From: Xanthostigma xanthostigma
Lineage: Eukaryota > Arthropoda > Insecta > Raphidioptera > Raphidiidae
DNA: 64,000 nt
NCBI GenBank assembly: GCA_963575645.1
Contig: OY754467.1
Coordinates: 23,395,001 to 23,459,000 of the forward strand
Reading direction: 5' to 3'
The notes below the pieces were generated by a model. The model worked only from the letters and a program-made list of their open reading frames with translations. It searched no databases and was not told the origin of the DNA. Positions within the stretch are counted from its first letter, which is position 1. Every line of letters begins with the position of its first letter. The translations under genes and the position numbers were made by a program. Below are positions 23,161-52,559 of this stretch, one piece after another.

Positions 23161-23192
23161 TAATTTTTGTTTTTCTTATGTTACAGGTAAGT
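23161..23192 (+). promoter_or_regulatory. recursive splice site (ratchet point) 1
   Basis: A T-rich tract (TTTTTGTTTTTCTT) runs into TTACAG at 23181-23186, followed with no exon by GTAAGT at 23187-23192. This fits the recursive splice consensus of pyrimidine tract, CAG, GTAAGT. Such sites let the spliceosome remove a giant intron in steps: after the first step the GTAAGT becomes a new 5' splice site. It implies a host transcript on the + strand spanning this part of the window. Confidence 0.6.
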
Positions 23193-23740
23193 GTCTCAAA
23201 ACTGCAATTTGAAGTTACTTTAAAAACCAAGGCCAGGTTTGAATTACTTTTATTTTATTCTAAACAACAATTTAAAAGACGCACTCTTGTTTTAAAAGAA
23301 CTAAAATAAATAAGCAAAAATATCATTGACAAGATACATTGTTTGGTTATTTATGTAAACGTTATAAACAATCAAAATTCATTAAACTCTTCCAATAAAA
23401 GGAAAAAAAAAATAGTTGGCAAAACCAAAAGTGCACATCCCGCAAGTTTTCCACTGTATGATAAAAAAATAACAATTAAAAAATATTTTTAATAAATTTA
23501 AAAAGATTTAAAAATTTAAAGAAATAAATAATTAAAAATTGAAAAAATATTTTTTTAAGTTTGCAAAAATAAAGACAATAAGAAATTTTTTTTAGCAATT
23601 ATGCACGGGTTTTGCTCTCAAAAATCCCGATTTTTTGAGTTTCTTGTCCTAGTTTATTGACTTTCTAGTTTATCGAAGAACGCATTTTATAGACACAATA
23701 TCCCAAAACACTATTTTTCAAGAATATCCCACCGCTACAC

Positions 23741-24073
23741 TAGCGGTATGTGCAATAGATTAAAAAAAACAATTAAAAAATTAAAATGAAAAAAATAAAA
23801 TGAAAAAAAAAAATAATAATAAAAAAAATATATGAGAAATATATTATATATAATATATAAATATTAAGTGGAATTAAGTGGAATAAAATGGAATATAAAA
23901 AAAAAAATTCTTATGTCAGCGGGAATCGAACCCGGCACCTTGGGATTACAGGACTTACGCTTTAACCGTTCGGCCACACCGATGCCGTACAACGCCTTTG
24001 TTATTATGGTATAGAAGTGTAGCAGTTATTTTACGTATCATACTACATTAATTGAGTATTGCACATACCGCTA
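23741..24073 (-). mobile_element. 333-bp MITE with tRNA-like head
   Basis: It is bounded by perfect 17-bp inverted ends, TAGCGGTATGTGCAATA and TATTGCACATACCGCTA. On the minus strand it contains a tRNA-like A and B box (23966-23976 and 23922-23932). The copy inside A' keeps only one of the two ends (24833-24849), so this is the intact one. No target duplication is clear because the flanks are themselves hairpin arms. Confidence 0.5.
23917..23985 (-). repeat. tRNA-like sequence (pol III promoter), copy 1
   Basis: On the minus strand, box A TGGCCGAACGG is followed 33 bases later by box B GGTTCGATTCC, the internal promoter of tRNA genes. The acceptor and anticodon stems do not pair, so this is a tRNA-derived repeat head rather than a working tRNA. 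Confidence 0.55.
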
Positions 24074-24299
24074 AACTAGCGGTATGTGCTTTATTATCGC
24101 TTTGTGCATCAGAGCTGACTTTCGTTCAGATAAGAAGTTATATATAAGTTAATTTCACACGAAATCCATTCAAAATGAAACTTTTTGAAAAGAGGAGATT
24201 CTGATCTATAAAACAGAACCATTTTTAAATCAATTCGAGTTCATAAATACTATTAAAATTGTAATTGAAAATCACAAACAGCAGTTGTCGGTTGGTCTG

Positions 24300-24342
24300 T
24301 ACGTATGTACGTACGTACGTACGTATGTACGTACGTACGTCA
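24300..24342. repeat. (ACGT)n microsatellite
   Basis: A self-complementary ACGT repeat with ATGT interruptions. The matching tract at 25331-25392 in the inverted arm is about 20 bases longer, showing expansion after the arms separated. Short frames across it give Y-V-R-T/C-T-Y repeats and are not genes. Confidence 0.85.
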
Positions 24343-24602
24343 CGACTCTACAGATCGCAATTTTGGTCGGATCCCCTTGGGTTATATTTTATTCACTTTG
24401 TTTACTATCAGACCAGAACCCTATTTAAATTCACTAAAATGTGTTCAGTAGTTTAATTTTTATAAACAGTTTTTTTTTTATTATTTTTGACAGCTAATTA
24501 AAATAAAAAAACAAAAAACATAATAAATATACTCAATTAATGTAGTATGATACGTAAAATAACTGCTACACTTCTATACCATAATAACAAAGGCGTTGTA
24601 CG

Positions 24603-24674
24603 GCATCGGTGTGGCCGAACGGTTAAAGCGTAAGTCCTGTAATCCCAAGGTGCCGGGTTCGATTCCCGCTGACA
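24603..24674 (+). repeat. tRNA-like sequence (pol III promoter), copy 2
   Basis: Box A is at 24612-24622 and box B at 24656-24666, identical to copy 1 but on the + strand. As there, the outer stems do not pair. Confidence 0.55.
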
Positions 24675-25330
24675 TAAGAATTTTTTTTTTTTTATATTCC
24701 ATTTTATTCCACTTAATTCCACTTAATATTTATATATTATATATAATATATTTCTCATATATTTTTTTTATTATTATTTTTTTTTTTCATTTTATTTTTT
24801 TCATTTTAATTTTTTAATTGTTTTTTTTAATCTATTGCACATACCGCTAGTGTAGCGGTGGGATATTCTTGAAAAATAGTGTTTTGGGATATTGTGTCTA
24901 TAAAATGCGTTCTTCGATAAACTAGAAAGTCAATAAACTAGGACAAGAAACTCAAAAAATCGGGATTTTTGAGAGCAAAACCCGTGCATAATTGCTAAAA
25001 AAAATTTCTTATTTTACTAATGTTTCTCGTATATTTTTATTTTTTTTTTATTTGTTTTAATCTATTTTCTCAATTTTTTTCATTATAATATAATGTACAG
25101 TGGAAAACTTGCGGGATGTGCACTTTTGGTTTTGCCAACTATATTTATTATGTTTTTTGTTTTTTTATTTTAATTAGCTGTCAAAAATAATAAAAAAAAA
25201 ACTGTTTATAAAAATTAAACTACTGAACACATTTTAGTGAATTTAAATAGGGTTCTGGTCTGATAGTAAACAAAGTGAATAAAATATAACCCAAGGGGAT
25301 CCGACCAAAATTGCGATCTGTAGAGTCGTG

Positions 25331-25392
25331 ACGTACGTACGTACATACGTACGTACGTACGTACATACGTACGTACGTACGTACATACGTAC
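25331..25392. repeat. (ACGT)n microsatellite, longer copy
   Basis: Partner of the tract at 24300-24342 inside arm B'. It is a long alternating purine-pyrimidine, self-complementary run. Confidence 0.85.
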
Positions 25393-25639
25393 AGACCAAC
25401 CGACAACTGCTGTTTGTGATTTTCAATTACAATTTTAATAGTATTTATGAACTCGAATTCATTTAAAAATGGTTCTGTTTTATAGATCAGAATCTCCTCT
25501 TTTCAAAAAGTTTCATTTTGAATGGATTTCGTGTGAAATTAACTTAGATATAACTTCTTATCTGAACGAAAGTCAGCTCTGATGCACAAAGCGATAATAA
25601 AGCACATACCGCTAGTTTAGCGGTATGTGCAATTGTATG

Positions 25640-27010
25640 CCACCGAAAGTCAACAGGCGGTATACTTGGCAAAATAATAAAAACACATAAAATAAATATT
25701 TTATTAAGTACTTGCGGAGTATTTTAAATTAAACATACACGTGCCGAGATGGCGCGGTCTTTACTGTTTATATTTAAATATTCTAATTTTACTTGAACGT
25801 GTTCAAATAAGTAGTATTGGAGTAGTTCCAAAACAGCGCAATAAACTTTTTACATTCTTTTCGTTTTAAAACATATTGATTTGAATATTTTATACCTACC
25901 TAGAAATAGATTGTGGATATTAATAAAAATATTCATATTCATATAGTAGTAGTAGTAGTACCAAAGCCACCACCGCATATTATCTATAAGAAAGTGGTTT
26001 CTAAATTTGAGCAATGAGTTGTTCGTGCGTCTACAAAAGAAATTTTTGCAAATATATTCTAATAGCTAAAAATAATATTTCTTAAAGGGGTAAAAAAGTA
26101 ACTAAAGTTGATTTTTCTGTTGTTTTATGGACTGTTTTTTTGATTCTGGAACTGAATTCAGGCAGTTTAAAGGATGAGAGGTAGGTTCTGAAATTAAGGA
26201 TATTCTTTCGTTAAATAACCTCTGACTAATTTTGCAAGTTATATATACTTACATAGTTCTTGCTTGCTATTCCTTCCTCTTTCTCTTTATAATATTTTAA
26301 TGTAGGTTGAATTGCCATGGCGCTGAAGCACATTCCTTTCTTTTTTATTCCCACTTTAAAGGCATATGCATCCTGATTTGGCGCGGCCCTGCAATAAAGA
26401 GGAATTGAATTTACAGCCAGTCATGTTTGCTTTTTAATTATTGTGATAATAAAACTCAGCCATATTGGATTGCGCAACATCTTATATTTTGTTAGTTGTA
26501 CTTAAAGCATGCGTGCAAGGTCGCTTTTTAATAAGTTCATTAAGATAACTGATAGTTATAAATAAATTGGTGTCATTGCCTCTGTAAAAACCACTTTTGT
26601 AATTAACTTTATACGTAATTGCTTACTTCACTGTTTCAAGACCTCAGAATATCTTTTTGTTTCAAAGTAATTGTATTTTTTTGCTCTTTATGCGCGTTAT
26701 CAATGTAAACTAGAAATTGAACCGTTTATTTTTGTTTTCTGATTTTTATAAATTGCATCTTAATATTTAACAATAAAATATTTCCTCAGTAGTAAACAGT
26801 ATACGCATAACTTTGGTAGGTATAACTTTTTGTGATTCTAGAATGCGCTATATTTAATCATGGTAGTAGTTCATTTTAAATGAATTGCACTGTATTGACC
26901 GCTTGCCGTAAACAAGAGGTTTTCTTCAGTCTTATTTTTTATTATTAGGTAAATCGCAAAGAGTTACGTTAAAATTACAAATTCATCTTTTACGTGTCAA
27001 GTGCCAACAC
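25640..27010. other. AT-rich DNA, no gene seen
   Basis: A short (TAG)n run lies near 25945-25960. No frame or repeat arm is supported. Confidence 0.45.
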
Positions 27011-27016
27011 AATATT

Positions 27017-27654
27017 TTAAACTAATATATAAAGCGGAAGAGTTTGTTTGTTTGTTTGGTTGAACGCGCTAATCTCAGGAACTACTGGTTCGAATTGAAA
27101 AATTATTTTTGTGTTAGATAGTCCATTTATCGAGGAAGGCTATAGGCTACATAATTCACGCTACGAGCAATAGGAGCGGAGCATAGTTGAAAAATGTTTC
27201 GAAAATAGGAAAAATGATTCCGTTTAAGAGCTTCCGTTGCGTGCGCTGCGTAAAAGGTTTAAGTTACGCAAAAATCGTGTATGATGGAATTGTTCTCCTT
27301 TAAAAGTTCTAAAATGTTATACAAAACAATGTCCCTCCGCTGCGTATGTCTGTCTGCACGCGATAAACTCAAAAACTGCCAAACAGATTTTCATACGGTT
27401 TTCGCTAATAGAAAGAGCGATAAACGTGGAAGTATTCCGTATATATTTTATAAATATTTTGCACAAAATAACGTGAATTATGACGGTGTTTTGTCAAAAA
27501 AAAAACTATTTTCGCTCACATGGCTAACACTGACCAAATTTTTAGAGATACATCAAAACAATGTTTTGTGATAGTTCTGCTGTGTAGATGGGGCGGTCAA
27601 TATAATATTTCCAGAACAGTTTTCCACCCGGGTGAAACCGGGACGAGCTGCTGG
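27017..27654 (+). mobile_element. non-autonomous Helitron, 0.64 kb
   Basis: The left end has ACTAATATATAAAGCGGAAG then repeated GTTTGTTT, the common insect Helitron 5' pattern. The right end has CCACCCGGGTGAAACCGGG, then CTGG followed by T, fitting the CTRR terminus. The body includes GAACGCGCTAATCTCAGGAA and a CGAGGAAGGCTATAGGCTAC stretch. The frame at 27281-27571 is not a helicase. The first bases (TTTAAACTAA in place of TCTATACTAA) are altered, so the exact 5' base is uncertain. Confidence 0.65.
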
Positions 27655-27659
27655 TAATA

Positions 27660-28230
27660 TTATATAGCTATAGTCTTGCGTTTATCAATGAAAAAAAATT
27701 GCAATTAGGCTGCGTGGCAAAACTATTACCGGATAACATCAGTTGTTACGAACCAAAGTTATGTTGCCGTGTTGTGACGCCAGAGCGGTTGTCAACAGGC
27801 GAGAGTAGATAGAAGTTAATGATATGCAACATTATTATGTATGTGGTTACGAAAATAACAGAAATACTTTAGAGTTCAGAGATGTGTTAAAGAAAGTAAA
27901 AAGGAATGTTGGAAATCATGGCGACATATTAGGGATGAGCAGTTCATGGTTTTATCGCCGTAATATCATTTTCTAATCTTTATAATTATCTCTTTATGTA
28001 TTTTGTAACAGTATCTAATTACTTATTATTGTTCTACTAAACGAACATGTTTGGATGATTACAATATAGTATAGAAATTAGCTGTAACATTACTACGTTC
28101 TGCGGTTAACGATAAAAAAAATACATTTCAGTTGAACATAATTGGTGTGTTTGGTATATTATGAGTTTAGTGTAGATAACTTAGTGAAATTTTCACTGAA
28201 AAGTGTATGTTAGGTATATGGTTTATAATA
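27660..28230. other. AT-rich DNA, no gene seen
   Basis: 27720-27810 is somewhat richer in G+C but has no frame or repeat partner in the window. Confidence 0.4.
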
Positions 28231-28236
28231 AAAATA

Positions 28237-28585
28237 CTAGCGGTCTATCCCGGTTTCACCCGGGTGCGATAGATATAATTCTGCAAAATGTGTTTCGTTT
28301 ACGGCCCGGCGTCTAAACTAATAGCTTTGAACAAATTCTACCAGATTTGCTTCGGAACTAATAGCTTTGAGCGAATTCTGACAGATGTCGCTACTAAAAC
28401 AGTTTTTTTTTTTTTGTGAAAACACCGTAATTTTGTACAGAATATTTAATGAAATCTATCCTATAGCGTTAGTTGAACCAAACGAGACTCATTTATAAAA
28501 TTTCATTTAAATCGGTTCAATGGTTTCGGAGATTAGCGTGGACGAACATCGGGACATGAGCTTTTTATAATTACATACCTACAAA
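28237..28585 (-). mobile_element. Helitron fragment, non-autonomous
   Basis: The minus-strand 3' end has CACCCGGGTGAAACCGGG, then CTAG next to T. Its body is the same subfamily as 3966-4345. The 5' end near 28585 is blurred (AAAAAGCTCATGTCC) and lacks the TCTATAC start. Confidence 0.6.
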
Positions 28586-28908
28586 AGACTACAAATCTTA
28601 GTTGGTTGGATGTAAAAAGAGTCAATTTAACACTAGAATGTATTCGTCCCACTCCTATTTTTTTGTGTAGATTATGATGTTATCGATTATTATTTATACA
28701 ATAATAATATTTTATGTTATTTACTTTCATTTTTTCGTACGCCCACATTAAAAGTTTAAAAACGTGCGTAATTTTTAGAGGTATACAATATTGCGAACTA
28801 AATTAAATTGCAACAGTGTTAAATATGCTGTTCTCGTGTGTTTTATGATCTTATCTATCAAGCCAAAGACAAGGAAAATGATTATAATCTATAACAGAAT
28901 TAGTTATA

Positions 28909-28970
28909 CAGGGTATAACAAAACGAGTGTCCGCTACTTCAAATTAACGAACACTTTTTGTTACACCCTG
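28909..28970. repeat. 62-bp mini-MITE
   Basis: Ends CAGGGTATAACAAAACGAGT and, from the other strand, CAGGGTGTAACAAAAAGTGT are almost the whole element, with a small loop. TA precedes it, but AA follows, so a TA target duplication is not proven. Confidence 0.5.
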
Positions 28971-29404
28971 AATAACGATAACAACGGGCTACTATGATCC
29001 CACTTGATACTTGAATTTGTCATTTATTTCAGGATTTTGATAATCATCACATAATATTGGATAAAGTTTGAAATTCTTTTAAACTTAGTGATAAAACTTG
29101 AGATAGCATTAAAGTAAGAGGAAAGATGTATGGTTTGTTACATGCGTGATAAAGTGTAGAAACAGCTGACGATATACTTTGCCAAGCTGTAGACTTTTTT
29201 ATGAATAACTAATTTACTTGATGGTAATTAACATAAAATTAACGAAATCACATTTTATAACAAATTACTTTGGCCTGGAAAATACGTAGATTTGCCAATG
29301 AAATAATTTAAAGCTATTGCGTTATTGTCATATTAACATGCTAATAATTTTAATGTAGGGTTTCATGGAAGGAAAATTTACCTTCTTGAGTGTTATTTCC
29401 TATT

Positions 29405-29640
29405 TTTTACCCGGCTGCGGTGAAGCCAAAAAAAAGGGTTATGTGTTTAACAGTCTATGTATGTATGTTTGTATTAACGGATGTTCCACCGTAGCGCCTA
29501 AACTATTCGTCCGATTTTGATAAATAAGTTGTCAATCGAGTCGTTATTATGAGCCAGGTAATGTAGGATAAATTTATTTTTTAAGTTTGGTCCCAGATGG
29601 GTAGCAAATTAAAAACAAAAATGAGTTAAAAAAAATTGAA
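29405..29640. repeat. dispersed repeat, unassigned
   Basis: It starts TTACCCGGCTGCGGTGAAGC and contains GTATGTATGTTTGTATTAAC and a GCGCCTAAACTATTCGTCCG stretch, a composition I associate with common insect interspersed repeats. The class cannot be decided here. Confidence 0.35.
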
Positions 29641-29642
29641 AT

Positions 29643-29881
29643 AAAAAATAAGTTCTCAAACTAAAACTCAACTAGGTACTGAAAAGTATGAAACAAGAAA
29701 ATATTCTCATCTGAGGATACCCGTGGTCGTATGCCATCTCATATATATGAGGCCCCTCTAAATATATAGCGTGATCAGCTTATAATCGCTTACTACTGTT
29801 AAAATATAATGTTTTGTTAGGTTAGGTGACATATGACCACGGCTATCCTTAGTCGGGTTTTAGTTTTTGAACTTATTTTTT
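29643..29881. mobile_element. MITE with inverted ends, 239 bp
   Basis: AAAAATAAGTTCTCAAACTA on the left and its imperfect complement ending AACTTATTTTT on the right, with inner matching blocks GGATACCCGTGGTCGTATG and CATATGACCACGGCTATCC. It is non-coding and its superfamily is unknown. Confidence 0.55.
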
Positions 29882-30181
29882 ACATTATGAACCATATAGC
29901 CTTTGTCCATAAAACCCAGTTATGTTTATAAAGTTGATTTAATGATAAAAGAAACATAAATGCTAAAACTTCGATGCATTTGAATTCTGAATTGAGGTTA
30001 TTGTTTATTTAAAACTGTTGCGAAGCATTACATTGTTCGTGTTCATCTGTACCTATGTAATAAAAATATTAATTACAGTTCAGTTTAATTTAATTTTAGT
30101 TTAAATGTATATTAGTTCTTTCTATATCTATTTGATTTCTGGTACAAACTGACACTTTAAAAAAATCAAGTAAACAATTAA

Positions 30182-30400
30182 GGCCGCTGCACACAAAGCT
30201 GTGTTTGCCGCTAGATTTGGCTGGTAGGTTTCAAGAGTGCTGTGGCGCTGGATTTCGTAATTTCTTTTATGTGTTCGCTTCACGCGATACGTGTTTGTAC
30301 GATAGATTTGTATATGGGTTTGTTGCGCGCGCAACAAAAATGTACGTTTATTGTCTATGATCAGAACACACACTTTAACGCCATGTTTGTTGTGGGCGTT
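30182..30400. repeat. dispersed repeat, related to 1155-1550
   Basis: Shares GCCGCTAGATT, TTTATGTGTTCGCTTCAC and ACGCCATGTTTG-GTGGGCGTTTGC with the earlier copy, in the same direction. The minus frame 30128-30373 across it is a shadow. Confidence 0.45.
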
Positions 30401-30404
30401 TGCA

Positions 30405-31160
30405 AAAACCCATGATAAATATTTTTAATATAAAAGTTCTCAGTCATTTAGCTGTTTAATTAATATTTCTTTATTTTGACGGGTTGTTTATAATTCATAA
30501 TGTATTGTACAACGGTATTTTGTGTTCTGAAATATCTCATACATTTTGTTCTAAAGCGCTGTAGCATGTCACAGAGGGTAACGACATTTTTAGGTGAAAG
30601 AACCCGAAATTATTTTAATAATATTAAATTCTCTGTACAAGACCAGTAAAGCATGTAAGCGTAAAACAGGTCACGAAAAAAACACGTTATATTTACTATT
30701 TTTACATAATATGAGAAAACGTGTTATAAAATGTTTTTTTATTAGTAATTATAACAAAAAATGGGCAAAATTCTCAGGGAATTCGAACTCACATAAAGTA
30801 TTTTGAACTTATTTAATTCAGCTTACTTCTAAAGGGGCTTTGTGTTTGAAGACAACCGGTTTGTAAGATTCATTAATTAAATAAATCAAATCAACTTGAT
30901 ACTTACCTATCGTTGGATTTATTTCATTTTAGAAGTCAATGGTCAGTTTCCAACTTCGATTTAAATTAAACACAAATGTGTTTATAATATATATATAGGA
31001 TCCTGCTGTAATAATTTCTAGTTACCCAGAGCTACGTAAGAAAATATCATCTAGCGTTAAAGAAAACCGTGCATTATTGTAAACATTTTTTTTATATATT
31101 TTAATATATGTTTATTCTGGGGAAAATTTAGTCCCAAAATTGAACAAAGTCATATAATAT
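30405..31160. other. AT-rich DNA, no gene seen
   Basis: The frame at 30594-30806 is Lys/Asn-rich with no signature and is probably chance. Confidence 0.45.
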
Positions 31161-31164
31161 ATGA

Positions 31165-31670
31165 TAAGATTTCTGAAATATACTTATGCCTTAAATATAC
31201 TAACCCTGTTGAGCGTCTACTATGCATACTTTTAGTCTGTCATACAGTTCGGAGTTATGTTCTGGGGAGATAGCGTTGACACGCAAAAAATTCTAATTCT
31301 TCAAAAAAGATGCATTCGTATCATGGCGGGAGTGGCACCACGAGAGCACTGCAAGCCCCTGTTTCAAAGATTACAAATATTAACTATCTATGATCTCTAC
31401 ATTTTAGAAAGTAGCAAATTCGTCAAGAACAACCCAGAATTTTTTGAAAATAATATCTGCAATCATAAATACGATACAAGAAATAAGGAAAAATTAAAAA
31501 TAAACACCGGCTCGTTAACAGTTGTAAATCGTGGTATCACCAACGCCATGATACGAGTGCATAATAAACTCCCAAATGATTTAAAAAATATAAATAATTG
31601 CAAAAAATTTAATTCTGCTGTAAAAAAATATCTGCTGTTAAAATGTTGCTATAATATAAACGAATTTTAA
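31165..31670 (+). pseudogene. LINE reverse-transcriptase ORF, C-terminal end
   Basis: The 137-codon frame from 31257 reads as the tail of a jockey/CR1-like non-LTR retrotransposon ORF2: FWGDS, ILQKRCIRIMAGV, REHCKPLFQRLQILTIYDLY, H-KYDTRNK and a final KYLLLKCCYNINEF. Upstream, SVYYAYF-SVIQFGVMFWG continues the family pattern (31215-31260), broken by one TAG (31230-31232) and, further up, a frame change. Only the portion after the polymerase core remains, so this is a 5'-truncated insertion. The stop at 31668 is the natural end. A 3' tail and target duplication were not found. It sits alone and has no host role. Confidence 0.75.
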
Positions 31671-31674
31671 CATG

Positions 31675-32790
31675 GTACTTTTATTTCACCTTTATATGGT
31701 TATGTAATAGACTTCGATCTCGCTTACAGATAAATATATTCTTATTCTATGTTTGAATATCTGATATTTGAAAATCAAAATGAATGTTTTTAAATCATAA
31801 GAGTACTCAGAAAACACCACCGATATGTATAATATCTAAATGTTAGCGTTGTTGGTATGCTCGCGAAACACTGCGGGTGTGTTTGTGTCTAAATTGAACT
31901 GAAATCTCAAACACATTATTTTAGCATGTTTATTCTAAATTGTATTTTGAACTTATTTGCTGTTTCTATTTTACTTACTGATTTGATCGGTAATTAGCAA
32001 TCCCGTTGTTTAATGAGGCTCGAAACAGTGTCAGTGATTCTTTATCGGATTGAGAGATCGGGAAAATTAAACAAAACAATAGACTTCTAGTGATTTTTAA
32101 ATAATTAGGTATCTTAATTAGGAAACTGAGTAAGATATTTCCAAGAGCAAATGCATTGGCACAGATAAATTAGATGGTGCATTTAGTGGAACTGGAAACG
32201 TAAATTAAGATTTTTTGTTTTCTTTTGTTTTCTGGAGGTAATTGCAATTGTTATAAAAAAACAAGAGGAAATATCAAGAAGTCTTCTACGGTGTTTGAAC
32301 ACGTTCACTATCGTAATACTGTTATGTCTAAACAGAAGAGAGGTCACTCTGAATATTATACATAGTATATAATATATGTAACAAGCTACATGCTGTAAAA
32401 ATATTTTTTACACAAAGTTGTCAATTTTTAACATAACATTGAAAATAACTAAAAAAAATATTTTGAAATTCTAAATTTTAAAAAATCTTCAGTAAATAAA
32501 AATAGACGATCTAGTAATATATATGCTAGATTCGAATTTGGGACAATATTAAATTTTAATCTCGGTGGGATAAAATATTATGTCGATTTGTGATCGGATC
32601 GGACCAGACTGCAGCTAGTGGTTATAGTTTAGGAGCTCACGACTAATTTTAGAACTGGAAGTTTATACGACTGTCGTATTTGGCATCGTATGTAGTTGTT
32701 GGGTTTGATAATATTGCAATATATTTTCATTTTTATTTAATATTATATAATATGTATAATTATAATTTTATGCGAAATCTATGTTGTATA
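31675..32790. other. AT-rich DNA, no gene seen
   Basis: Could include the LINE 3' UTR just after 31670, but no tail marks its end. Confidence 0.4.
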
Positions 32791-32794
32791 GGTG

Positions 32795-33150
32795 ACGTTT
32801 CGAGTGGGGAGGGGGTTTTCATCCACTAAATTTTTATATCACTTCTTATGACTTTTTAAAAAATAAATAGGTGTTCATAATTGATTGAATGATGATTTCG
32901 TGCCGAAGTGGGAGTAAGGGTCAGAGGGACGAGAGGGGAATCCAAATTTGATAGAATGTTGTATAGTCACCAGACTTAGGTAAGTTTGCAAAACTTCAAA
33001 AAAATCGGTCAGATAAAACTGGATGAAAAATGAATATAAAGTTTTCACCCAACAGGCAGACAAGATTATATGAGTTAAATAAAACGTTGCAAAGTTTACA
33101 AAGAATCAATTTTTGTCGAGTAAAATGCACTGAAGCGGGCTGCTGCTAGT
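32795..33150 (+). repeat. possible Helitron-like repeat
   Basis: Ends GAAGCGGGCTGCTGCTAG followed by T (CTAG at 33146-33149), resembling other Helitron ends here, but no clear hairpin or TC start was seen. The minus frame 32875-33063 is a shadow. Confidence 0.3.
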
Positions 33151-33154
33151 AAAT

Positions 33155-34955: not shown

Positions 34956-34972
34956 AGAAAACAACTCTTATA

Positions 34973-35022
34973 ATAAATAAAATTTATTTGAAGAGTTCTA
35001 TTCAGACGTTAATCAAAGATTT
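34973..35022 (-). repeat. 50-bp retro-unit, copy 4, with 14-bp target duplication
   Basis: The 50-base insert contains TTCTATTCAGACGTTAATCA and an AATAAAATTTATTTG tail on its left. AAACAACTCTTATA flanks it exactly on both sides (34959-34972 and 35023-35036). On the minus strand the unit ends in an AT-rich tail, so the polarity matches reverse transcription from that end. This is the cleanest copy. Confidence 0.85.
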
Positions 35023-35106
35023 AAACAACTCTTATATTAAAACCATTGCTAGTTCTACAACGGCTCATATAGTTCAGGGATAAAAACAAAAAATAAGTCA
35101 AACTTC

Positions 35107-35764: not shown

Positions 35765-35769
35765 CTCTG

Positions 35770-36290: not shown

Positions 36291-36296
36291 ATACAT

Positions 36297-37356: not shown

Positions 37357-37424
37357 AATGGAACGGCACCGTCTAAACGGTGCCGTTTAGACGGTCACCG
37401 TGTATGTGTGAAACGGGCCTAAGG

Positions 37425-40040: not shown

Positions 40041-40048
40041 TGCATTAA

Positions 40049-40688: not shown

Positions 40689-40694
40689 TTAAGA

Positions 40695-41555: not shown

Positions 41556-41561
41556 TAGAAA

Positions 41562-41650
41562 TACCAATGGACCACCGCATACAAGCCCGGAATCCAAGAA
41601 GATTTGGATCGATATCGATCGTGAAAGCCTACACACTTGGACAAGAAATG
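41562..41650. repeat. dispersed repeat, copy of 5385-5475
   Basis: About 80% similar by eye to the earlier copy over 85 bases. It lacks the inverted left arm seen there, so the shared block is the older unit and the palindrome at 5313 is secondary. Confidence 0.55.
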
Positions 41651-41876
41651 ATTAACTCCTATTTTGAATCACGCTAACCGGAAAGCGCGATAGATCAATT
41701 CAGAAATTGTAGACAGTAACTAGATAATACTTATCGTTTTGCAATGCAATATAAGCGGCATAGTTTTATGCAAGGGAAATTTAAGAGCAGGTATGTTTTA
41801 TTTTGTTGCCGTTTCATTAACCCTGTTAGTATCTAATTATGAGTCACTACCTACAGTTTCCGAAGTGAACTTTAGT

Positions 41877-42118
41877 GGGACCATAAATGATCATATATGG
41901 ATAGAGGATGTTTAAATGGGAGACGATTCCTTGGTTGATTAAAGAAAAAGTTCTTTTGGACTATAACGCTTTGTTGCAGAATTGCAGGGATTTGAAAATT
42001 TGTCTTGGGAAAGTCAATGCATTTGCGGATCCAAGGAATCGTCTCCCATGGTTTGTCGGTGTCATATTTAAACATCCCGTACGTATATCCATATAATGAT
42101 CAATAATCATATAGGACC
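41877..42118. repeat. foldback element, 242 bp
   Basis: GGGACCATAAATGATCATAT and GGGAGACGATTCCTTGG on the left are mirrored on the right by CCAAGGAATCGTCTCCC and CATATAGGACC, with small insertions in the right arm. The two frames on it (41872-42075 minus, 41908-42096 plus) are shadows of the palindrome. Confidence 0.6.
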
Positions 42119-42119
42119 A

Positions 42120-42730
42120 AAAACGATATTTTTTTACGGGGGCAGCCTAGCGACTGTGGATTTCTGGTAATTTTCAGCGCTCCCTTATTTTGAGATTGTT
42201 CACGAGGAACGCAATATTGAGATAGGTATAATAAAATAAAAATTTTATTTGCTATATGTATAAACAAAATCGATCACGACACGTTAAAACAGAAATCACC
42301 TTAAATGTCATTTACATAATAAAACCATCCAATACCTATGGGAAACCATTTTTAAATCACCCAGTTTTTTGTACATATTAGCGTTAAAATTTCTGTCAGA
42401 TTCAGCGCTTTAATTTTAAAATTTCTTTGTTTGCTTTTCTATAATCTTTTAATATAGGTAGCCATCGTTTCGTCAACATCCTCCCGTCATCTACTTCCCA
42501 GTCTTTCTCGGGTATTTTTTTTTTGAGTAATTAATATGCTATCGTTCGAAGTCTCTTAGATCTTTTTTTTTCACCTGTTGTTTGTGTAGTAAATATAAGT
42601 CTTTATAATTTCTCGGCATAATATGCTTAAATATATTGTAAGAATTATTTTCGATACAACAATAGTGTATGTACCATACATACAAAGAAACAAATAGAGG
42701 TAATAAAGAACATCAAATAAATAAATGAAA
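42120..42730. other. AT-rich DNA, no gene seen
   Basis: No frame or arm is supported. Confidence 0.4.
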
Positions 42731-42732
42731 AT

Positions 42733-43038
42733 ATGTTTTTTTAAAACAAGCTTTTATTATTTAACAAATAAAGAACTAAAAAGTTAAAAATAATTTTATT
42801 CCGATTAGAAATAAGCCGTTTTATACGTACTTATCAAAGTTTCAATTATCAAATAAAAGCGTGTTACATTTTAATAGCAAGAGAGAGAAGAAAAAGAGGG
42901 TGTTACATGCTTTTATTTGAGAATTGAGACTGCGATAAGTACGTATAAAACGGCTTATTCCTAATCGGAATAACTTTTTTTTTATTTTAGTCCTTTTTTA
43001 TTAAAAACTAATAAAACCTTGTTTTAAAAAAAAAACAT
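42733..43038. mobile_element. MITE with nested inverted arms, 306 bp
   Basis: The outer arms share a TTTAAAACAAG and TTTTATTA block; the inner arms ATTCCGATTAGAAATAAGCC and GGCTTATTCCTAATCGGAAT are near perfect, with TACGTACTTATC/GATAAGTACGTA next to them. The loop has a GAGAGAGAAGAAAAAGAG purine run. No target duplication is certain. Confidence 0.6.
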
Positions 43039-43079
43039 TTTTTTCGTTTATTTATTTTTAAGTTTTTAGTGTGCTTTAT

Positions 43080-43290
43080 TAAAAGTGCGATTTACAACCG
43101 GGCGAAAGTGGGACCGGGCAGTTATTTATTATAATATTGTACTGTCATCGGAACTACATATAGGTACGTTTGCAAGGGTTCAGCTCAATCGGAAACCGGG
43201 AAGTGGGTTAAATTTAACTTGCAAGATTTGATTTCAGAGAGACAGTTGAAACTTAATAAAATTAGTTTTTAATAATATAAACTATACTTA
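43080..43290. repeat. dispersed repeat fragments
   Basis: CCGGGCGAAAGTGGGACCGG resembles a worn Helitron 3' end. It is followed by GGTTCAGCTCAATCGGAAAC and GGGAAGTGGG, wording typical of insect interspersed repeats. The limits are not clear. Confidence 0.35.
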
Positions 43291-43299
43291 CGTTTACTA

Positions 43300-45615
43300 T
43301 TTAATTTTGTAAAACAAAATAATTTTTTTCAATATTCTCATAGTTACTGTACGAAAGTAGTCAGACGTCTACACTAAAATAATTTTTCAGCAATTCACAT
43401 TCTGTAGTGTAAAGTGTTTCAACATTGAAATTTCATTATTTGTATTTCTAATTTCAGCACAGTTTTAAGAAAATGGTTAACGCAGTCATTATGAAAATAA
43501 ATCAAACTCTAAAACAGTACATCCGCTTACTAATACCTAATTAGTATCGGATTTCACGCCGCAAATATGAATTTTGGAAAAGCCCTCATTGACAACGGAG
43601 TATGCATATTAAAAGTTCTATTGTATTTTTGTTATGATTCATATTTTCCCGCCGCTCATGACAAAGACGCAACATGTTTCGCATGCGTGATATTTGAGTA
43701 TGTGTACTTACACGTAAGATAGAGGTCTTGTTTGTTTGTGTTATGAAAATATTACGTCTACTAGGGAACTGCTAGTAAAACACGAAAAAAATACGATAAT
43801 GAATAATTGCCCCAGCATTTTTGAACTAAAGGAAATTATTATAACTTTTTAGTTCGTTTTAAAGACGGGGTATATTAAAAAAATATTTTTTTTATTATTT
43901 AACTACTTATATGCACTCCCTGAAAAATTGTCTAGTAACATTAATTTCAATTCCCGCCACATCCGTATCTAAAATTCACGGACGTTTCTGAGACGATGGT
44001 GGAAAATTGTATTGTTAAAGAATTGTAGAAACCACGGCACCTTCAAAATTTATTTTAAGGTAAAAGTAAAATTACATTTTACATATATGATTAGATTTTT
44101 ATTTTACTGATTTATTATCTTTGAATCTATTCAAATGGTAGAAATTAATAATTTTCAAGAAAATGGATAAAAGTTATTTTATGACTTAATTTATGCTAGT
44201 CTAACTTAATTCAATTTAATTTTCAGCACGAATCCTAGAATAATATTAAAATTATGCATTATTTCGAAACTCAAGATAATCTTTCTGGCAGCCTTATAGG
44301 TACATACGTAAAACTGCATTGAAATAGTGTACTTAAAACACCTATTTTTATGTATAAATCTAATGGCGTACCGAGTACCATATGGTGCCAAACAGTTTTC
44401 TGGAAGGATAATAATAGAAAAAATTGATATGTAGTGTGTTTTTTTTAATAATTCATTAGTCAGCTAATTGAGTTAAACTCTAGAAATAGGAATCCATCTT
44501 ACATATATTTTGGTTGCTTTCAGTCCAGATTAATTAAAAAGCCAGGGTAAATGGATATACAATTATTTTTTTTATTTATAGTAGTGAGTAGTTGAGAATG
44601 CTTTTTTGAAAAATAAATTAAATTTTTTTTCGCTCCTCGTACGATAGGTACATATAAAAATAATGTGTACAGTAGCATTTAGCGTGCTTTTTATGAGTAT
44701 CTTACTTACCGTTTACCGTATTATAAATGTTTTGGAACAAATTCAAGGTGTGGTTTTCACTTACATTGCGATTAGGCGATGCATAATAAAAGAATTATTT
44801 ATATTGATTATTTCAGAAACAGAATTTCTGAATTCTGTGTTTTTCTTTTTTCTGTTATAATATATGAGTGTTTTGAGTCTTTTTTATCAAGCATATATTT
44901 CAAAATTTTTAAGTTTTGAAAAATAAGGATATTTAAGTTTTTTTTTTAATTATTTATTAATTTGTTTCAAAAGCGTGTAATCAATTTGCGAATCAAATTG
45001 AAATGTGATAATAAATTATTAACCGTGATTCTACCTACATTTTTATGTCACCGTATTAATATTTGAATACGTCAGATAATAATTTGAGATAGTTTGATAA
45101 TTGGCAAGAACAAGTAACTTCTGTATGATACCTATTTGCATTTTGCATACATAAATCACAATCATTACAATATGATAGGTGCTTTACATGTCAGACGTTA
45201 TGGATCACTTCATAACTGTTATATTATTACCAAAACAGTAACATAACTAACCAGCTCCTATATCACACAATAGTTTGAATGATATATTTGTGTCGAGGTA
45301 GTTTAATACCCCTACAGGGCCGGTTTGTATTTTTTATTTCTAAAATTTAACCCCCTTCTACCATTATTTCTTTTTTTCCTTTAAAGTTATTTGGGCGTAG
45401 TAAAAAATTCGATTTAGTTTCGTAAAGATTATTTTGAGTGAATAATCATTAATCTTTGTACAAAATAAAACAAAAAATATGACTTAATTTTTATCTACTT
45501 TATAACAAAAATGTTCAAGAAACAGAACGTTTTATACCGATATTATATTATGGAGGTGGATCGCATCCAATTAGTTTAGTCCTTTCTTATAAACGAGTTT
45601 GATTATTGTATATTT
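43300..45615. other. AT-rich DNA, no gene seen
   Basis: Frames at 44206-44391 and 44663-44860 are short, hydrophobic and unsupported. Confidence 0.45.
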
Positions 45616-45619
45616 ACTT

Positions 45620-46085
45620 GTCGGCAGGAATTCAAACCGCCAACCAGAATTAAGGTCATCATACAAAAATACTCCTACTATTTTTCAGTGGGCTTAGCCA
45701 CAAAATAAGTTGAATATGCAACTTGTTTTAAAAGATTCCATATCATTAGTCAAGTTAATGCACTCCTGAAAGTCTATCGGGAATAACATAATATGCCACC
45801 CAGAAATTAAAACTTTGTACCCATTGGATATTTCACGCGTCATAAGACTAATGCATTCTTGCAGGAAATACCGTGGGTTTGAAAAACATATCTCTTTGGC
45901 CTTGTTTAATTATTCTAGATGTCATTTCTGTAATCAAGATAAGTGCACTCCTGCTGTCAGCAGGAATGGCATATTGTAAGTATGCAAACCGCCCAGGGTT
46001 AAAAAATCTCGTCCTGCTACATATTTTACAGTTCTTAAGTTAAATACACTCCTGCTATCACCAGGAAACGCATCTGGCACGTCGG
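45620..46085. repeat. diverged 92-bp tandem array, five units
   Basis: The block ACTCCT (unit anchor CACTCCTGC) recurs at about 45670, 45761, 45854, 45946 and 46047, spaced 91, 93, 92 and 101 bases. Around it other blocks recur in order: AATAAG/AGT-AATG before the anchor, CAGGAA-T after it, and CCGCC-A or CCACCCAG further on. The period is not a multiple of three, so it is not a protein repeat. Units are only moderately similar, so the array is old. Confidence 0.55.
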
Positions 46086-46099
46086 TACGATACCTGTAA

Positions 46100-46260
46100 G
46101 TTATCTATCACTTCGCTTGGTCGAATCTGATCGAGGCAGGCCTTGTGCTATTGTCGACGTTCGTTTGTCGTTCGCCATTACCGATGCCGTCACGTCACGT
46201 TGCCTGGTCTCGTGTTCGCGTCAAAAACATGCCTGGTGATACATTAATAACGGAATCAGG
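46100..46260. other. CpG-dense GC-rich stretch
   Basis: Roughly 18 CG dinucleotides in about 170 bases (for example GTCGACGTTCGTTTGTCGTT and CGTCACGTCACG) inside DNA that is otherwise poor in C and G. It could be a promoter, enhancer or young repeat. No TATA box, initiator or frame supports one choice. Confidence 0.35.
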
Positions 46261-46680
46261 GTGACAGTAGATAATAATAATTAATGTCACTTACCGTTGT
46301 CCCAAATTATGTGATATTTGTCAAAATTTGTTATTTCTTTTCATGTCTACCTCTTCTAACGTAATTAGATTACAGTACCAGCATGGTAATTTTTTTGTCG
46401 TTTTTATTTCAGACTTTTAATATTTGCATTTGTAACATCTAAGCAGTCAAATTTTAATCTAAACGTTTCATTAACCATGGAATAACGTTAACATGGTAAG
46501 CGAAACGCGATTCGGAAAAAAGTACTGGTGTTTTGCGGTTATTATTTTTTTTATTCAGTGAAAACTTTGCATTCATTTATCGTTTATTTTTGATAAAAGA
46601 TCAATAAAGATTGTTCCATTAAAAGTGTAGGTAGGTACTATTTAATTTCAATTTACAAATACTAAATAATTTTCTTTTTT

Positions 46681-46976
46681 CATACCGATCGGGGTGGCGC
46701 AGTGGTGAGATCACTAGACTTGCACTCGGGAGGTACCGGGTTCGAATCCCGGTGGGGGCAGATGTGGACTTTTTCCTGCTGCCTCTCGCCGAGAAACGGT
46801 AATTCCTGTACCGGCCATCTTGTTGAGGTTTTCGATGGTTTCCCTCAATAATTTCAGATAAATATCGAGATGGTTCCTTACTCAAGTGTGATAGATAGAA
46901 AATAGTAATGGTGCGAATGCACGTCTGTTATGACATAAAGTCGAGAAACGGACGTTAAACGCATTATTATTATTAT
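46681..46976 (+). mobile_element. tRNA-derived SINE, 0.3 kb
   Basis: The tRNA-like head has box A TGGCGCAGTGG (46695-46705) and box B GGTTCGAATCC (46739-46749). It is followed by an unrelated body and an (ATT)n tail. TTTTCTTTTTT flanks both sides (46670-46680 and 46977-46987), an 11-bp target duplication, though its simple sequence weakens it. It would be copied by a LINE enzyme in trans. The minus frame 46619-46885 is a shadow. Confidence 0.8.
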
Positions 46977-46989
46977 TTTTCTTTTTTTA

Positions 46990-48980
46990 TCTTCCTTTTG
47001 AATTTTTTAACACGCTACTGGTCCAATTGACGTTAAACTTTGCGGTCGTTTGTAGTTTTGATGACAATACAATAGTATGATAGATTAGCTATAATAATTA
47101 TTAATCTTTATATAACATTTAAAGTTTAAAAATAAATAGCATGTGGTGGAAGTGACGGTGCTTGTGGTAGGAATACGTGTCTCCAGCCGTTTAAATATAT
47201 CTTAATATATTAACTAAAAATTTGAAAATAGAAATATGTACATTGTACATACATAAAAAAAAATATAAACGCGGTTTATTCTAACGCACAAAAAGTGGAA
47301 AAATATATGTTTATCTTTTTTATAACGTTTATTTAATTCATTAAGTACCCCACGCTTTTAAACGTTATAAAAAATTAAAAAAAAAATAGTTTCTACTTGA
47401 AGTGCGTTGGTACGCCTACGAAATTTTTTTATTTTTAATATGTGTTTCTACTTTATAAACTATTATTGGAAACAACGTATGTATATAAATAAATTTTAAG
47501 CCTTATCTTTCAATGAACACGGGGATCCAGTGCTTATCCAGGTGTTTTTATCGCTTCAGTGGAAAGAAGCTGTTATTGTTGCTTGCATTCAGATATCTTT
47601 TCATTAACGAAGGTCATAGATGAGACAACGAACGGAATTTATTCACCTGCGTATGTATTATGTAGGTATATTTTAATTCTAAATAAACCTGCAGGGAGTG
47701 CGCATTGTTTTTGTGAGCTTATTTATAAATTTCTTAAGTGATACGTCGTTTGAAATCTACTAAAAGGACAACTTAGAGCATGTGATCAACAATGCCGTAT
47801 ATTTCCATTCTTGCGAAAAATAAACTACTAATTGATCGACACGTTTACTGGAGGGTTAAATGTCGGGAGCTCATAAATATCTTATTTGCGACCTAATGTT
47901 GTTTTTATAAACATAAAACTAGTTATATAACATCATTAAATTTAATTGTGATTCGGCGTCATTTTGACTTCAATGAAAAGAACATTGATGTATTATTATT
48001 TATAAATTTGTGCATATATTAAATATACATTTAACATCATCTACAACAATTGATGCCAATCAATCATTTGTTATTAAAGTCCGGAACGTTGAATGTCGTG
48101 TAAAGTTGCGGCCCATAAATATTGTAAATTTAAGGTCAAGTTCTCGTAGTTTGTTGTACAGGGATAGGTAAATAATGAAAATATCGGTTCAGGTAATTTT
48201 ATTTTATTTCGCGTGTCACCAAAACAATGCACTATATATATTCATTTTTTTAGAATTTCCATATCTTTTTTTAAAGATCATTAACTTCAGTGATCGTAAT
48301 CACTCGGTACAGTCGTTGTAAAAATGAGAATAATATGTACTTACAGTGTAATTAGCGCACATTAAAATGTTTAAACTTGATTTATTAGTCCTGTTCTATT
48401 CATGTAATTTTTAATTTTAATTGAATGTAGCAAAATTTAATATTTCCATAACGCAATTCGACGCGTACTTATGCCCCAAAATCGGTAGACGTCTGTAAAA
48501 AAATATTTATAATGACGTGGACTAACTGAACTATGTATAGGTATATTAAATATTTAAGCAAATATTAAAACCAATAAAAACCTATCTACTTAGGTTCCGC
48601 TTCGCTCGGATGCAATTTTAAAATATAGATAAGTAGTTCTCGTGTTTTTAGCGGACATAAAATAACACAGGCGAGGAACTTTGCACTATATAATATATGT
48701 GGTTAGTTCACTATAGCGGACACAATCAGATTGTGTTGCATTTTACATGAAACGATTTTCAGTAATGCATTTATGATTTTCATATAGCTACCATATGAAC
48801 AAAACTCATGCATATAATCTGTCTTGAATGAAATTCCCTGTATAGACAATGTTTTTGTCTAAAAAATGATACGCTTATCAAATTAGGTCGTTAGCCAATA
48901 TTTTTGGTAATTTTTTGACTAAGGTTTGAGTGATCAGAAAGTTTCTCGACTTTTTTAATATAATCGTATAATAATATAGT
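46990..48980. other. AT-rich DNA, no gene seen
   Basis: 48585-48640 (AGGTTCCGCTTCGCTCGGAT) looks like the end of an interspersed repeat; the rest shows nothing. The frame at 47559-47741 is unsupported. Confidence 0.4.
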
Positions 48981-48985
48981 TACTC

Positions 48986-49035
48986 AAATCTTTGATTAAC
49001 GTCTGATTAGAACTCTTCAATAATTTTATTTATTG
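48986..49035 (+). repeat. 50-bp retro-unit, copy 5, with target duplication
   Basis: Reads AAATCTTTGATTAACGTCTG on the + strand, then GAACTCTTCAATAATTTTAT. ATAATATAGTTAC precedes it and ATAATATATAGTTAC follows it, an imperfect 13-15 bp duplication with a 2-base indel. Same polarity rule as the other copies: AT-rich tail at the 3' end. Confidence 0.7.
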
Positions 49036-49039
49036 AATA

Positions 49040-51890
49040 ATATATAGTTACGCCCTAAATATTTTACTAGCAATTATTATATTCACTAGTATGCTTACTT
49101 GCCGTAAAAATCCTAGATATTTTAGACAATTAAATTATCGAAGCTTGTCCAATGTCCATCCCTATTTAGATCCAATATCATTTTCAACCAATAGTCGCAT
49201 ATTATATACATCTATAACTGTATTTATATATTTATACATATGGTCATAACATATGTTCCGTAAAATAATAATCATACAAATCTAATGGTCAGTGTTCCCA
49301 TAACCGATATGATGATTATGTTGATTGTCTTTTGTCTCATACCAAGCATCTTAATGCATGTATACTTGATAAACGCGTTGTTAGTCCGTAATAAGTAAAT
49401 CTCGCAGAAGAACTACAGCTAAAAACCTCGCTCTTTGTCCGTTCCTTTATTGACTCATATTTTAAATCGTATAATGTAATACTTAATAACATAATTTATA
49501 CAAAGTGAAATCTATTTCACTTTGTTTTATCGAATAGCATTAGCATGACAAGGAACTATAATAAATCTAACTGAAAGAAGTGGTGTTTTCCACTCATTTC
49601 ACTTTGTGTGTTGAATGGATCTTTTGCTATCGGTACATAATAAATGTACAAAGTACAATAATGTTTGAAAATAACGTGCAAAAGCTCATAAAAAAATTGA
49701 CTTCATTTTTTTATATATCATTTTTTATAAAAACTAAAAGTTCATTTAGTTTTTCTATCCTAAAAATATACATTTTTCAATTACATGCGAAAAAAATATA
49801 GTAGATACAATATATTAATAAATTGTGATATTTTTACAGGTACCACTAAAGTTACAAGCTTCTGTAAAAATATTATCTGTATCATAAACTAGTAAAACTA
49901 TAAGTAATATTGCTGATACAAACTTGTAATAAGCAAGTGTGGTTATCAACAATTAAAAAAACATTTCTACAGAAATTGACCATTGAAGTTTAAAGTCGAC
50001 AGAACAATATAAATATTAAACTAAAAGCAATTTGTATATTGTCTGATTTATTAGCGTCCAATCAAAGAACATTTACTGTTCTGTGGCGTCCAATAATCCA
50101 ACATTTCTTTCCCAATTTCTATACTGTTTGTATTATCTCATGGTTTGATACTTATATTCTCTAAGTTAAAACAGTAATATTGCTTTGTTATCATCTATTT
50201 GCTGTATCGGTAAAGAAGACTATAAAACATATTAACGATATTAGGTCACATTGACCTCAAAGACTTATTCCGGTTTGTGAATTATATACTGCATTAAATA
50301 TTTCAATTCCAAACTAGGTATATATAGTGTTCAGTTTGTACAACGAAAATACAAATTGTTTATAAAATAGATTCATACAACTACGTAGGACCGTCTATTT
50401 ATTACACATTTGTTTTTATTACTTTTTGACCCCTCCCATACGCTAATAAGAAAACTGAAAAATACACTCTCTAATCATTTGTGAGATATAACGTTCGTGC
50501 GCGGTAGCTGCTATAGCCGTAATAATGAAAATTCTAGTATGACAGTACGGCGTTACACGCATTTACTATAATGTTTATAAAATCAGTACGGTTGCAGGTT
50601 CTACTGGCGTAATACGACACTGTTTGTATTCGGAAATACTATATATGTATTATACATAATATATTATAGCACGGCAGTGGAAGGTTTTCGGGTAACGTAG
50701 GTCCATTCCCACCTGTGAATAAATAAAGAGGAAAAGACGGACAGATTTCTCAAAACGGTGGATTGTTTGGGCGGTACCGGTGTTATTTTGGGCCCATAGT
50801 GATCAGAGAGGGTACAGCACCACTTCCTCTACCATTCTGAGAAACTTGTGCAGTATTGTAACTAAGAAAAGAATATGCAGTTGATCGATAACAATTATAT
50901 TTAATAATCACTTCAAAACGTGACGGTGATAAGGTACAAGGAAATTTGATTTACATAATACATTCTTACGATTAACAATATGGTTTGATCATGACTAACA
51001 ATTAGGAGCTGGGGGTAGAACCCTGACAAGGTGATCACTTAATTATCTAGGGAAGTACATTTAATAAGATTATTTAAATTAAAAAAAAAAAATACGTGAA
51101 AGAGGAAAAAAAAACTAGGCGTGAGCTTCATACCTTTTTGAAGAGTACTTTACTTACACATGAACATTACTTATTCTATTAATACTTTACATAATTCGTG
51201 GATGACTACGGGTAGTTAGGCGCTTCATTGTAGTACAATGAAGTCTAAAATTTAGCTTGGAAAAGTAGCTTGAAGATGATTCTGTGGTTTATTCCATGAG
51301 CGTCCTTTTCGTGCGACCACCTCGAATCCCGGAAAACAACTTAATGTTTGTTATTTTTCCGTAACTAATCAATATTAATTTTAATTATTTCAAACCTAAC
51401 AACTATTGTTTGTCACTTTTCACTTTTGAAATCACAGATACCGCGTTTTTAGAGTCAGCCGACTGGATCACACGATAGACACACTTATGTTTATAAGTCC
51501 AAGCCTCGCGATCCAAATCGTACCGCGCATGCAAATACCCGCGAATTTAGTGACTTAAGATTTCCTTATTTATATTTTTTTATAATAATTTTATGCTAAT
51601 ATTAAAAAATTGTCGCGGTGCTATGGCACCACGTGACAATATATAGAAAATTTTAGTTAGTTGAGTTAACTGGAAGTTAATGTTACCCGCGCGCGAACGT
51701 GATATGGACATTTATTGAAAATAATATATTAGCCCTCCCCAACTGAAAACTTTTTCATAATACATACTCGTATATAAGGTCGTGCTAATACTAACTACTT
51801 GATCAGAATTGATTTTGAGGAGAAAACATTTTATTGAATAATTTAATTTTTATATCATGATTTTTTTTGTTCCGTTTTATCGAATACTAG
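49040..51890. other. no gene seen
   Basis: Mostly AT-rich. 50670-50860 and 51270-51560 are GC-richer and may be worn repeats, but gave no frame or partner. A small hairpin, CAAAGTGAAAT/ATTTCACTTTG, is near 49500-49524. Confidence 0.4.
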
Positions 51891-51896
51891 AGGCTC

Positions 51897-52113
51897 GGTC
51901 CGGCTTCGCCAGAATCTGTAGAGTGCCACAATTATTTCATCGAAAAACTGGTCTCCGCGAAAAGGGATTTTATTTTAACGCGACAATATGTAGCCTATGT
52001 CTTTCCTAAAAATCTATTCTAAATATCGGTGAAATTTTTTTAAAATTCGGATGAGTAGCTTCTGAGATTTCCTCTTACTTCCAAACTTTACTTCTTTGAA
52101 ATAATAGTATAGA
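51897..52113 (-). mobile_element. non-autonomous Helitron, 217 bp
   Basis: The minus strand starts TCTATACTATTATTTCAAAG then AAGTAAAGTTTG, and ends GGCTTCG-type GC-rich DNA with CTCTAG followed by T. Both termini are readable. It is probably a deletion derivative. Confidence 0.65.
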
Positions 52114-52525
52114 TCACTCCAGGTTGAATAAAAATTTTAAAAACCTTGTTACTTACTTATATTCTATATTTCCGTCGTCCAGACTATGTACTATGCAGTA
52201 TGCAGTAATAATACCAATACAGTACAAACTACAAAGTTATGCTGAGACATGTTGGAATTTACCTGTTTACAATACTTTTCATTGTTGTATTGCTGTGAGT
52301 TAATGTTATTGTTTTCATTGGGACTCGAATTCCATTTGAATGTGATGATGCTTGGAACAGGTGTACTGATTTGAGACGTTTGTCACATATTTTTGTTGTA
52401 GACTGAAATACTTGTGAAGTATTGAAAAAATACTGATTTCGCAGTAGTACTTAACCTATAAGAATTGTGATATAATAACATAAAGTTAGAGCTAGTACCT
52501 ATATTATATATTTGAACATTGTATT

Positions 52526-52556
52526 AATATTTTTTTTCTTTTTGTTACAGGTAAGT
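52526..52556 (+). promoter_or_regulatory. recursive splice site (ratchet point) 2
   Basis: A T-rich run with a single C leads to TTACAG at 52545-52550 and straight into GTAAGT at 52551-52556. It has the same TTACAG|GTAAGT core as the site at 23186 and a very similar TTTGAA...ATTAAT lead-in, so one long + strand intron could use both. No exon lies between the AG and the GT. Confidence 0.62.
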
Positions 52557-52559
52557 TTT

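Follow-up and report, generated by a model that had tools for sequence, protein, structure and literature searches.

Candidate fly-type ratchet points in a predicted Shroom intron of Xanthostigma xanthostigma, with a genome-wide view of the motif

Recursive splicing at sites in which an acceptor and a donor are juxtaposed at an AG/GT core (the slash marks the junction) is established in Drosophila for very long introns such as those of Ubx, kuz and Bx, as outlined in PMC6110457 and PMC8605326. According to the latter account, a Drosophila ratchet point spans a cryptic recursive splicing exon (RS-exon), about 50 nt long and followed by a further donor; whether the ratchet donor or the RS-exon donor is used depends for the most part on donor strength, with exceptions. 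In vertebrates, recognition of the RS-exon comes first, after which it can be removed by means of the regenerated donor (PMC8605326). Beyond these systems, for mosquito, honey bee, beetle and sea urchin, an excess of ratchet-point sites in large introns was described computationally in 2009 (PMC2773006). Here, two junctions of this type were analysed in a stretch of 64,000 nt from Xanthostigma xanthostigma (C4:23395001-23459000, contig C4 being OY754467.1 in an assembly of 623 Mb and 28 contigs), referred to as the window, which most likely lies within a single, very long Shroom intron.

Compared with the Drosophila ratchet points of those accounts, the sites share the juxtaposed AG/GT, the pyrimidine tract, the very long intron predicted around them and, genome-wide, the RS-exon donors. 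They differ in that the host would be Shroom, in that the candidate RS-exons of the window end in AG/GTTTGAAT and not in GTRAG, and in that they are known here from sequence alone. Initial recognition through an RS-exon would be shared with vertebrate recursive sites as there described, whereas the sites themselves are of the fly type. The motif and the strand-excess argument, applied outside Drosophila, are those of the 2009 survey (PMC2773006), and the present analysis differs in that RS-exons and related site copies were both measured in one genome. No mention of ratchet points in Shroom, or of ratchet-site duplication, was found in the titles and abstract openings of the papers listed by searches on recursive splicing. 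The recursive splicing considered is of a known kind; what is new is the genome-wide view in this genome and the near-flank likeness among neighbouring sites.

Candidate ratchet junctions in the window and across the genome

The two junctions, both on the + strand, read ...TTCTTATGTTACAG/GTAAGTG at 23186/23187 and ...TTCTTTTTGTTACAG/GTAAGTT at 52550/52551 (negative positions and positions above 64000 are window coordinates extrapolated beyond its ends). The original prediction had described a pyrimidine tract and TTACAG joined directly to GTAAGT at both places, with a similar lead-in; the letters agreed with this on re-reading, and the common lead-in consists of ATTAAT at -28..-23, ahead of the tract. 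The arrangement of Drosophila-type sites, namely a pyrimidine tract and NCAG abutting GTRAGT, was therefore present at both. The elements of the two sites are as follows.

23159..23164, + strand: ATTAAT at -28..-23 of ratchet point 1, possible branch-point sequence (sequence; branch-point role putative)
23165..23186, + strand: acceptor side of ratchet point 1, with pyrimidine tract and TTACAG (sequence, genome pattern, matrix scan)
23187..23192, + strand: GTAAGT donor abutting the acceptor of ratchet point 1 (sequence, genome pattern, matrix scan)
23187..23236, + strand: candidate cryptic RS-exon 1, 50 nt, end CAG/GTTTGAAT (putative boundary; non-canonical donor)
52523..52528, + strand: ATTAAT at -28..-23 of ratchet point 2, possible branch-point sequence (sequence; role putative)
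52529..52550, + strand: acceptor side of ratchet point 2, with pyrimidine tract and TTACAG (sequence, genome pattern, matrix scan)
52551..52556, + strand: GTAAGT donor abutting the acceptor of ratchet point 2 (sequence, genome pattern, matrix scan)
52551..52594, + strand: candidate cryptic RS-exon 2, 44 nt, end AAG/GTTTGAAT (putative boundary; non-canonical donor)

In a strict scan of the window with 100 kb on either side (264 kb, both strands), a third site, CAG/GTGAGT, was found on the + strand at -13500 (C4:23381500), 13.5 kb before the window start, and zero sites were found on the minus strand at the same strictness. Flanks were fetched for 124 sites in all, 47 of which comprised 39 sampled from the genome-wide list of GTAAGT sites with G at -7, six loci of the GTGAGT form and two others, and the remaining 77 comprised 74 of 94 further sites from same-strand clusters and the three sites of the Shroom region. 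When the remaining 121 fetched sites were used to train a weight matrix, the site at 52550 scored 33.2 bits, that at -13500 31.7 and that at 23186 29.4, with a runner-up of 11.3 on either strand of the 264 kb; the maximum in first-order shuffles of the region (n = 40) was 20.5, below all three sites. Because the training sites were mostly chosen with patterns resembling the window sites, the matrix serves as a detector for this site type and not as a neutral measure.

At the genome level, the pattern YYYYYYYNNNTTNCAGGTAAGT, which covers both window sites, occurred at 121 places, versus 1 for the reversed pattern, counted as a control over the whole genome. Sites with G at -7 numbered 143 versus 0 in the GTGAGT form and 80 versus 1 in the GTAAGT form, while TTTCAG/GTRAGT followed by a downstream GTAAGT, with the longer tract not required, was found at 212 places versus 0. 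G at -7 was frequent among the fetched sites, yet most of them had been picked with patterns demanding it. Neighbours separated by at most 200 kb were on the same strand in 31/31 cases among 100 listed places of the 121 and in 23/23 when all 80 places of the GTAAGT form with G at -7 were taken, as expected where several sites share one long intron; opposite-strand neighbours within 1 Mb numbered 4 and 2, respectively. The motif thus displayed the strand-biased enrichment over chance that is characteristic of Drosophila-type sites.

A second signature was provided by GTRAG donors, which had played no part in the patterns selecting the sites. They were found at +15..+75 in 96/124 fetched sites, and the donor was GTAAGT in 70/124; the corresponding GTRAG counts in four control stretches of equal length were 6, 8, 10 and 5 (n = 124 each). 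The RS-exons so delimited had a length peak at 35-49 nt and a median of 43 nt. Judged by sequence layout, this genome-wide pattern is that of the RS-exons of Drosophila ratchet points, and the original identification of the window junctions as ratchet-point consensus is backed by the counts of motif, strand and RS-exons taken together. The GT of these donors was preceded by AG in 2/96 cases, versus 6% of 548 background GTRAG, a scarcity that fits a weakened donor, although few cases are involved.

Two further observations were made. The lengths of the 96 RS-exons with GTRAG donors were uneven modulo 3 (remainder 1, 44; remainder 0, 30; remainder 2, 22). In addition, a set of inverted repeats, nested within one another (arm lengths 343, 283, 246 and 167 nt, 98-99% complementary), occupies 23565-25633 of the window, starts about 380 nt past ratchet point 1 and could form a long RNA hairpin.

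The predicted Shroom intron and proposed stepwise splicing

Pfam profiles located the Apx/Shroom ASD2 domain downstream of the window, on the + strand, in four colinear pieces from 77091 onward. The C-terminal ASD2 of the Shroom family was thereby represented by two strong and two weak pieces, the best solved-structure match being Drosophila Shroom (PDB 3thf, E 5.3e-16), and no second ASD2 place was returned by a whole-genome search. A long open exon starts at 74835 after TTTTCAG, about 2.3 kb ahead of the first piece, and three long open exons lie upstream of the window, the last of them with a canonical donor (AAC/GTAAGT).

-91944..-91365, + strand: upstream long open exon with acceptor and donor signals
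-90631..-89841, + strand: upstream long open exon with acceptor and donor signals
-87977..-86502, + strand: upstream long open exon with acceptor and donor signals
1..64000, + strand: interior of one predicted Shroom intron (flanking + strand exons of matching phase 2; ASD2 pieces downstream)
ORF (open reading frame) 77091-77303, + strand: ASD2 piece 1, profile 16-73, E 0.00099, under the Pfam cut-off
ORF 77671-77880, + strand: ASD2 piece 2, profile 63-117, E 0.053, under the Pfam cut-off
exon at 78594, + strand: ASD2 piece 3, profile 117-210, E 1.8e-28
C4:23475622-23475867, + strand: ASD2 piece 4, profile 208-289, E 2.4e-32

The four exons flanking the predicted intron agree in phase at three junctions (0, 2, 2), both ends of the intron being in phase 2, and their joined frame runs over 1331 codons with zero stops. 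By coding score they rank 3-6 among the 4390 ORFs found in the 264 kb; the two ORFs ahead of them belong to a stretch resembling a retroelement. All four exons would be parts of Shroom. The intron predicted between them extends from about -86501 to 74834 (161,336 bases) and contains the whole window. The sites would accordingly lie on the sense strand of a very long intron, as in Drosophila, within a gene model that is predicted and whose flanking exons are inferred. The original prediction of one giant + strand intron was supported by the exons on both sides, ASD2 and the phases; the predicted intron, of about 161 kb, is far longer than the 29.4 kb between the two window sites and has three sites in place of two.

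Taken together, these data indicate that the three sites are very probably zero-nucleotide recursive splice sites (ratchet points) of this + strand Shroom intron. Splicing would then advance site by site behind the polymerase. The upstream exon, taken to end at -86502, would be joined first to the AG at -13500; the GTGAGT regenerated there would splice to 23186, where the regenerated GTAAGT would in turn serve to reach 52550 and finally the exon at 74835. The intron would leave in pieces of 73.0, 36.7, 29.4 and 22.3 kb, with zero nucleotides added to the mRNA. Each site would probably be recognised first, via its downstream donor, as a short cryptic RS-exon of 45, 50 or 44 nt (the first ending at a GTAAGT at +46 of the site at -13500), which would afterwards be skipped since the ratchet donor wins. 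The sites, the downstream ASD2, the phases and the genome-wide signature are seen in the sequence itself, whereas use of the sites in RNA, the order of the steps, the branch points and RS-exon recognition were inferred. In phase 2, all three candidate RS-exons would be translated as T followed by a stop at the second codon; inclusion would be costly because the retained ratchet donor supplies a stop in a phase-2 intron.

Opposing observations and alternative explanations

Several observations weigh against this interpretation. Neither the three upstream exons nor the exon at 74835 gave any Pfam match over the cut-off, so that they are assigned to Shroom by their order and strand and by the agreement of splice signals and phase. 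The first segment, of 73 kb, holds no comparable site: among the 20 best places listed by the matrix, the two + strand places between -86502 and -13500 scored 3.4 and 2.3, and an extra ratchet point within that segment was rejected on this listing. Both window sites are devoid of GTRAG at +15..+75 and carry AG/GTTTGAAT instead, at +51 (site 1) and +45 (site 2). Such ends are rare, with AGGTTTG within +15..+75 in 7/124 sites versus 0, 0, 0 and 1 in the controls; six of the seven carriers make up three same-cluster pairs, a number reached in 199/20000 permutations, and AG/GTTTGA may represent a rarer RS-exon donor. For the site at -13500, the donor of the RS-exon (GTAAGT) is by appearance at least as strong as that of the ratchet point (GTGAGT), contrary to expectation under simple donor competition.

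A further doubt concerns the start of the intron, which might lie at an alternative first exon closer to the window and not at -86502, the three sites being true ratchet points all the same. This possibility, which is compatible with recursive splicing at the three sites and overlaps with it in probability, is considered unlikely, though worth serious attention. Shroom genes may have several promoters, and the upstream exons are without a family match, both of which speak for a nearer start; phase 2 at both ends of the longer intron and the canonical AAC/GTAAGT donor argue for -86502.

It is far less probable that the sites are ordinary alternative (cassette) exons, sometimes included, whose first bases are GTAAGT or GTGAGT by chance, with ratcheting incidental. 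Donor-like sequences do lie 44-50 nt downstream at all three sites, and for the site at -13500 GTAAGT is no less canonical as a donor than GTGAGT, with an RS-exon length of 45 nt, a multiple of three. Cassette inclusion in phase 2 would nevertheless meet the early stop at every one of the three sites, the GTTTGA donors of both window sites are weak, and RS-exon GTRAG is rarely preceded by AG across the genome, albeit in small numbers. Chance or decayed splice-like strings devoid of function are even less credible: single motifs of this kind are possible in T-rich DNA, but this explanation is opposed by the 121 places versus 1 for the reversed pattern, the shuffles below the observed scores, the strand coherence and the RS-exon signature. 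Recursive splicing at three ratchet points was retained as the preferred explanation.

Likeness among neighbouring sites and other contents of the region

In order to evaluate likeness between sites, near flanks were compared with the core masked in 114 pairs from the same cluster and 7512 other pairs. Six of the 114 exceeded all 7512, and the pair formed by the two window sites scored 33.5, a value reached by 8/7512 other pairs and, when placements within the intron were drawn at random, in 4 and 7 cases of 4000. The site at -13500 was unremarkable with respect to the other two (171 and 2670 of 7512 as high). By flank, pairs over the 99% mark were most numerous at +7..+90 (13/114, the strongest signal), followed by -80..-19 (6/114), +100..+180 (5/114), -160..-81 (4/114) and +180..+260 (0/114), while an offset control, upstream versus downstream, gave 2/114 over the 99% mark and 1 over the 99.9% mark (1.1 and 0.1 expected). 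The blastn match of the window pair covered 39 bases (85%) around the site; for another pair, L006/L007, the main match over 3 kb was 118 bases around the site, with a second, out-of-register match of 39 bases (E 1.8e-4).

When all 420 bases were compared, the window pair was reached by 6/7512 and none of the 114 same-cluster pairs stood above the best other pair (139.5, top of the 7512), which may share a flanking repeat; the near flanks were therefore relied upon. Results depend on the flank used, given the shift in rank of the pair L006/L078, behind 99/7512 in the near flanks and behind 2 over all 420 bases.

From these likenesses, local duplication of ratchet cassettes appears well supported for a handful of neighbouring pairs and is only suggested for the window pair. 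For the related pairs other than the window pair, tandem duplication of genes, instead of duplication within an intron, remains a rival. A more general proposal, advanced tentatively and with slightly less than even confidence, is that whole cassettes (branch point, tract, AG/GT, RS-exon and RS-exon donor) may duplicate locally, a growing intron re-seeding itself, and that the window sites, both TTACAG/GTAAGT with AG/GTTTGAAT, would be such copies in one Shroom intron.

In genome searches, 250 bases around site 1 returned the self-match alone, and 251 bases around site 2 returned the self-match and one 45-base match of 87% (window 52512-52556), whose partner at C8:43015248-43015292, on another contig, is a further ratchet-like site. 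The least probable of the explanations considered, that the sites were carried in by copies of one mobile element, could draw on this match and on the likeness of the window sites beyond the core (equalled in 8/7512 other pairs), but it was rejected as unsupported, given that queries of about 250 bases at both sites yielded no other copies and that the six most alike near-flank pairs all lie within same-strand clusters.

The original suggestion that mobile elements had accumulated inside the intron was checked lightly: some ORFs look element-like by eye, but Pfam gave nothing over its cut-off for the 11 ORFs of at least 100 aa in the window. Scans of the window with Rfam (gathering threshold) and for tRNAs returned nothing. 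ORFs with a common SIFCRC...CRKAGI stretch, recognised by eye at 13861-15067 (+ strand) and, some 112 kb further upstream, at about -99400 and -98500, are probably pieces of one repeated element and gave no Pfam match over the cut-off. A 144-aa ORF at 31236-31670 (+ strand), for which Pfam also returned nothing, appears to resemble the tail of a non-LTR (long terminal repeat) retroelement polymerase. Long ORFs similar by eye to LTR retroelement gag/pol were seen at -68464 to -64246 (- strand), inside the same predicted intron, and at 93760 to 97935 (+ strand), beyond the exon at 74835. As for TTAGG, the usual insect telomere repeat, exact (TTAGG)5 occurred at 0 places in the whole assembly, and the repeat is either absent or unassembled.

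Fly-type recursive splicing with cryptic RS-exons is therefore indicated genome-wide, by sequence features, in another animal, and a testable list of sites is made available. If the related neighbours are true within-intron duplicates, they would represent a concrete origin of new ratchet points as introns grow.

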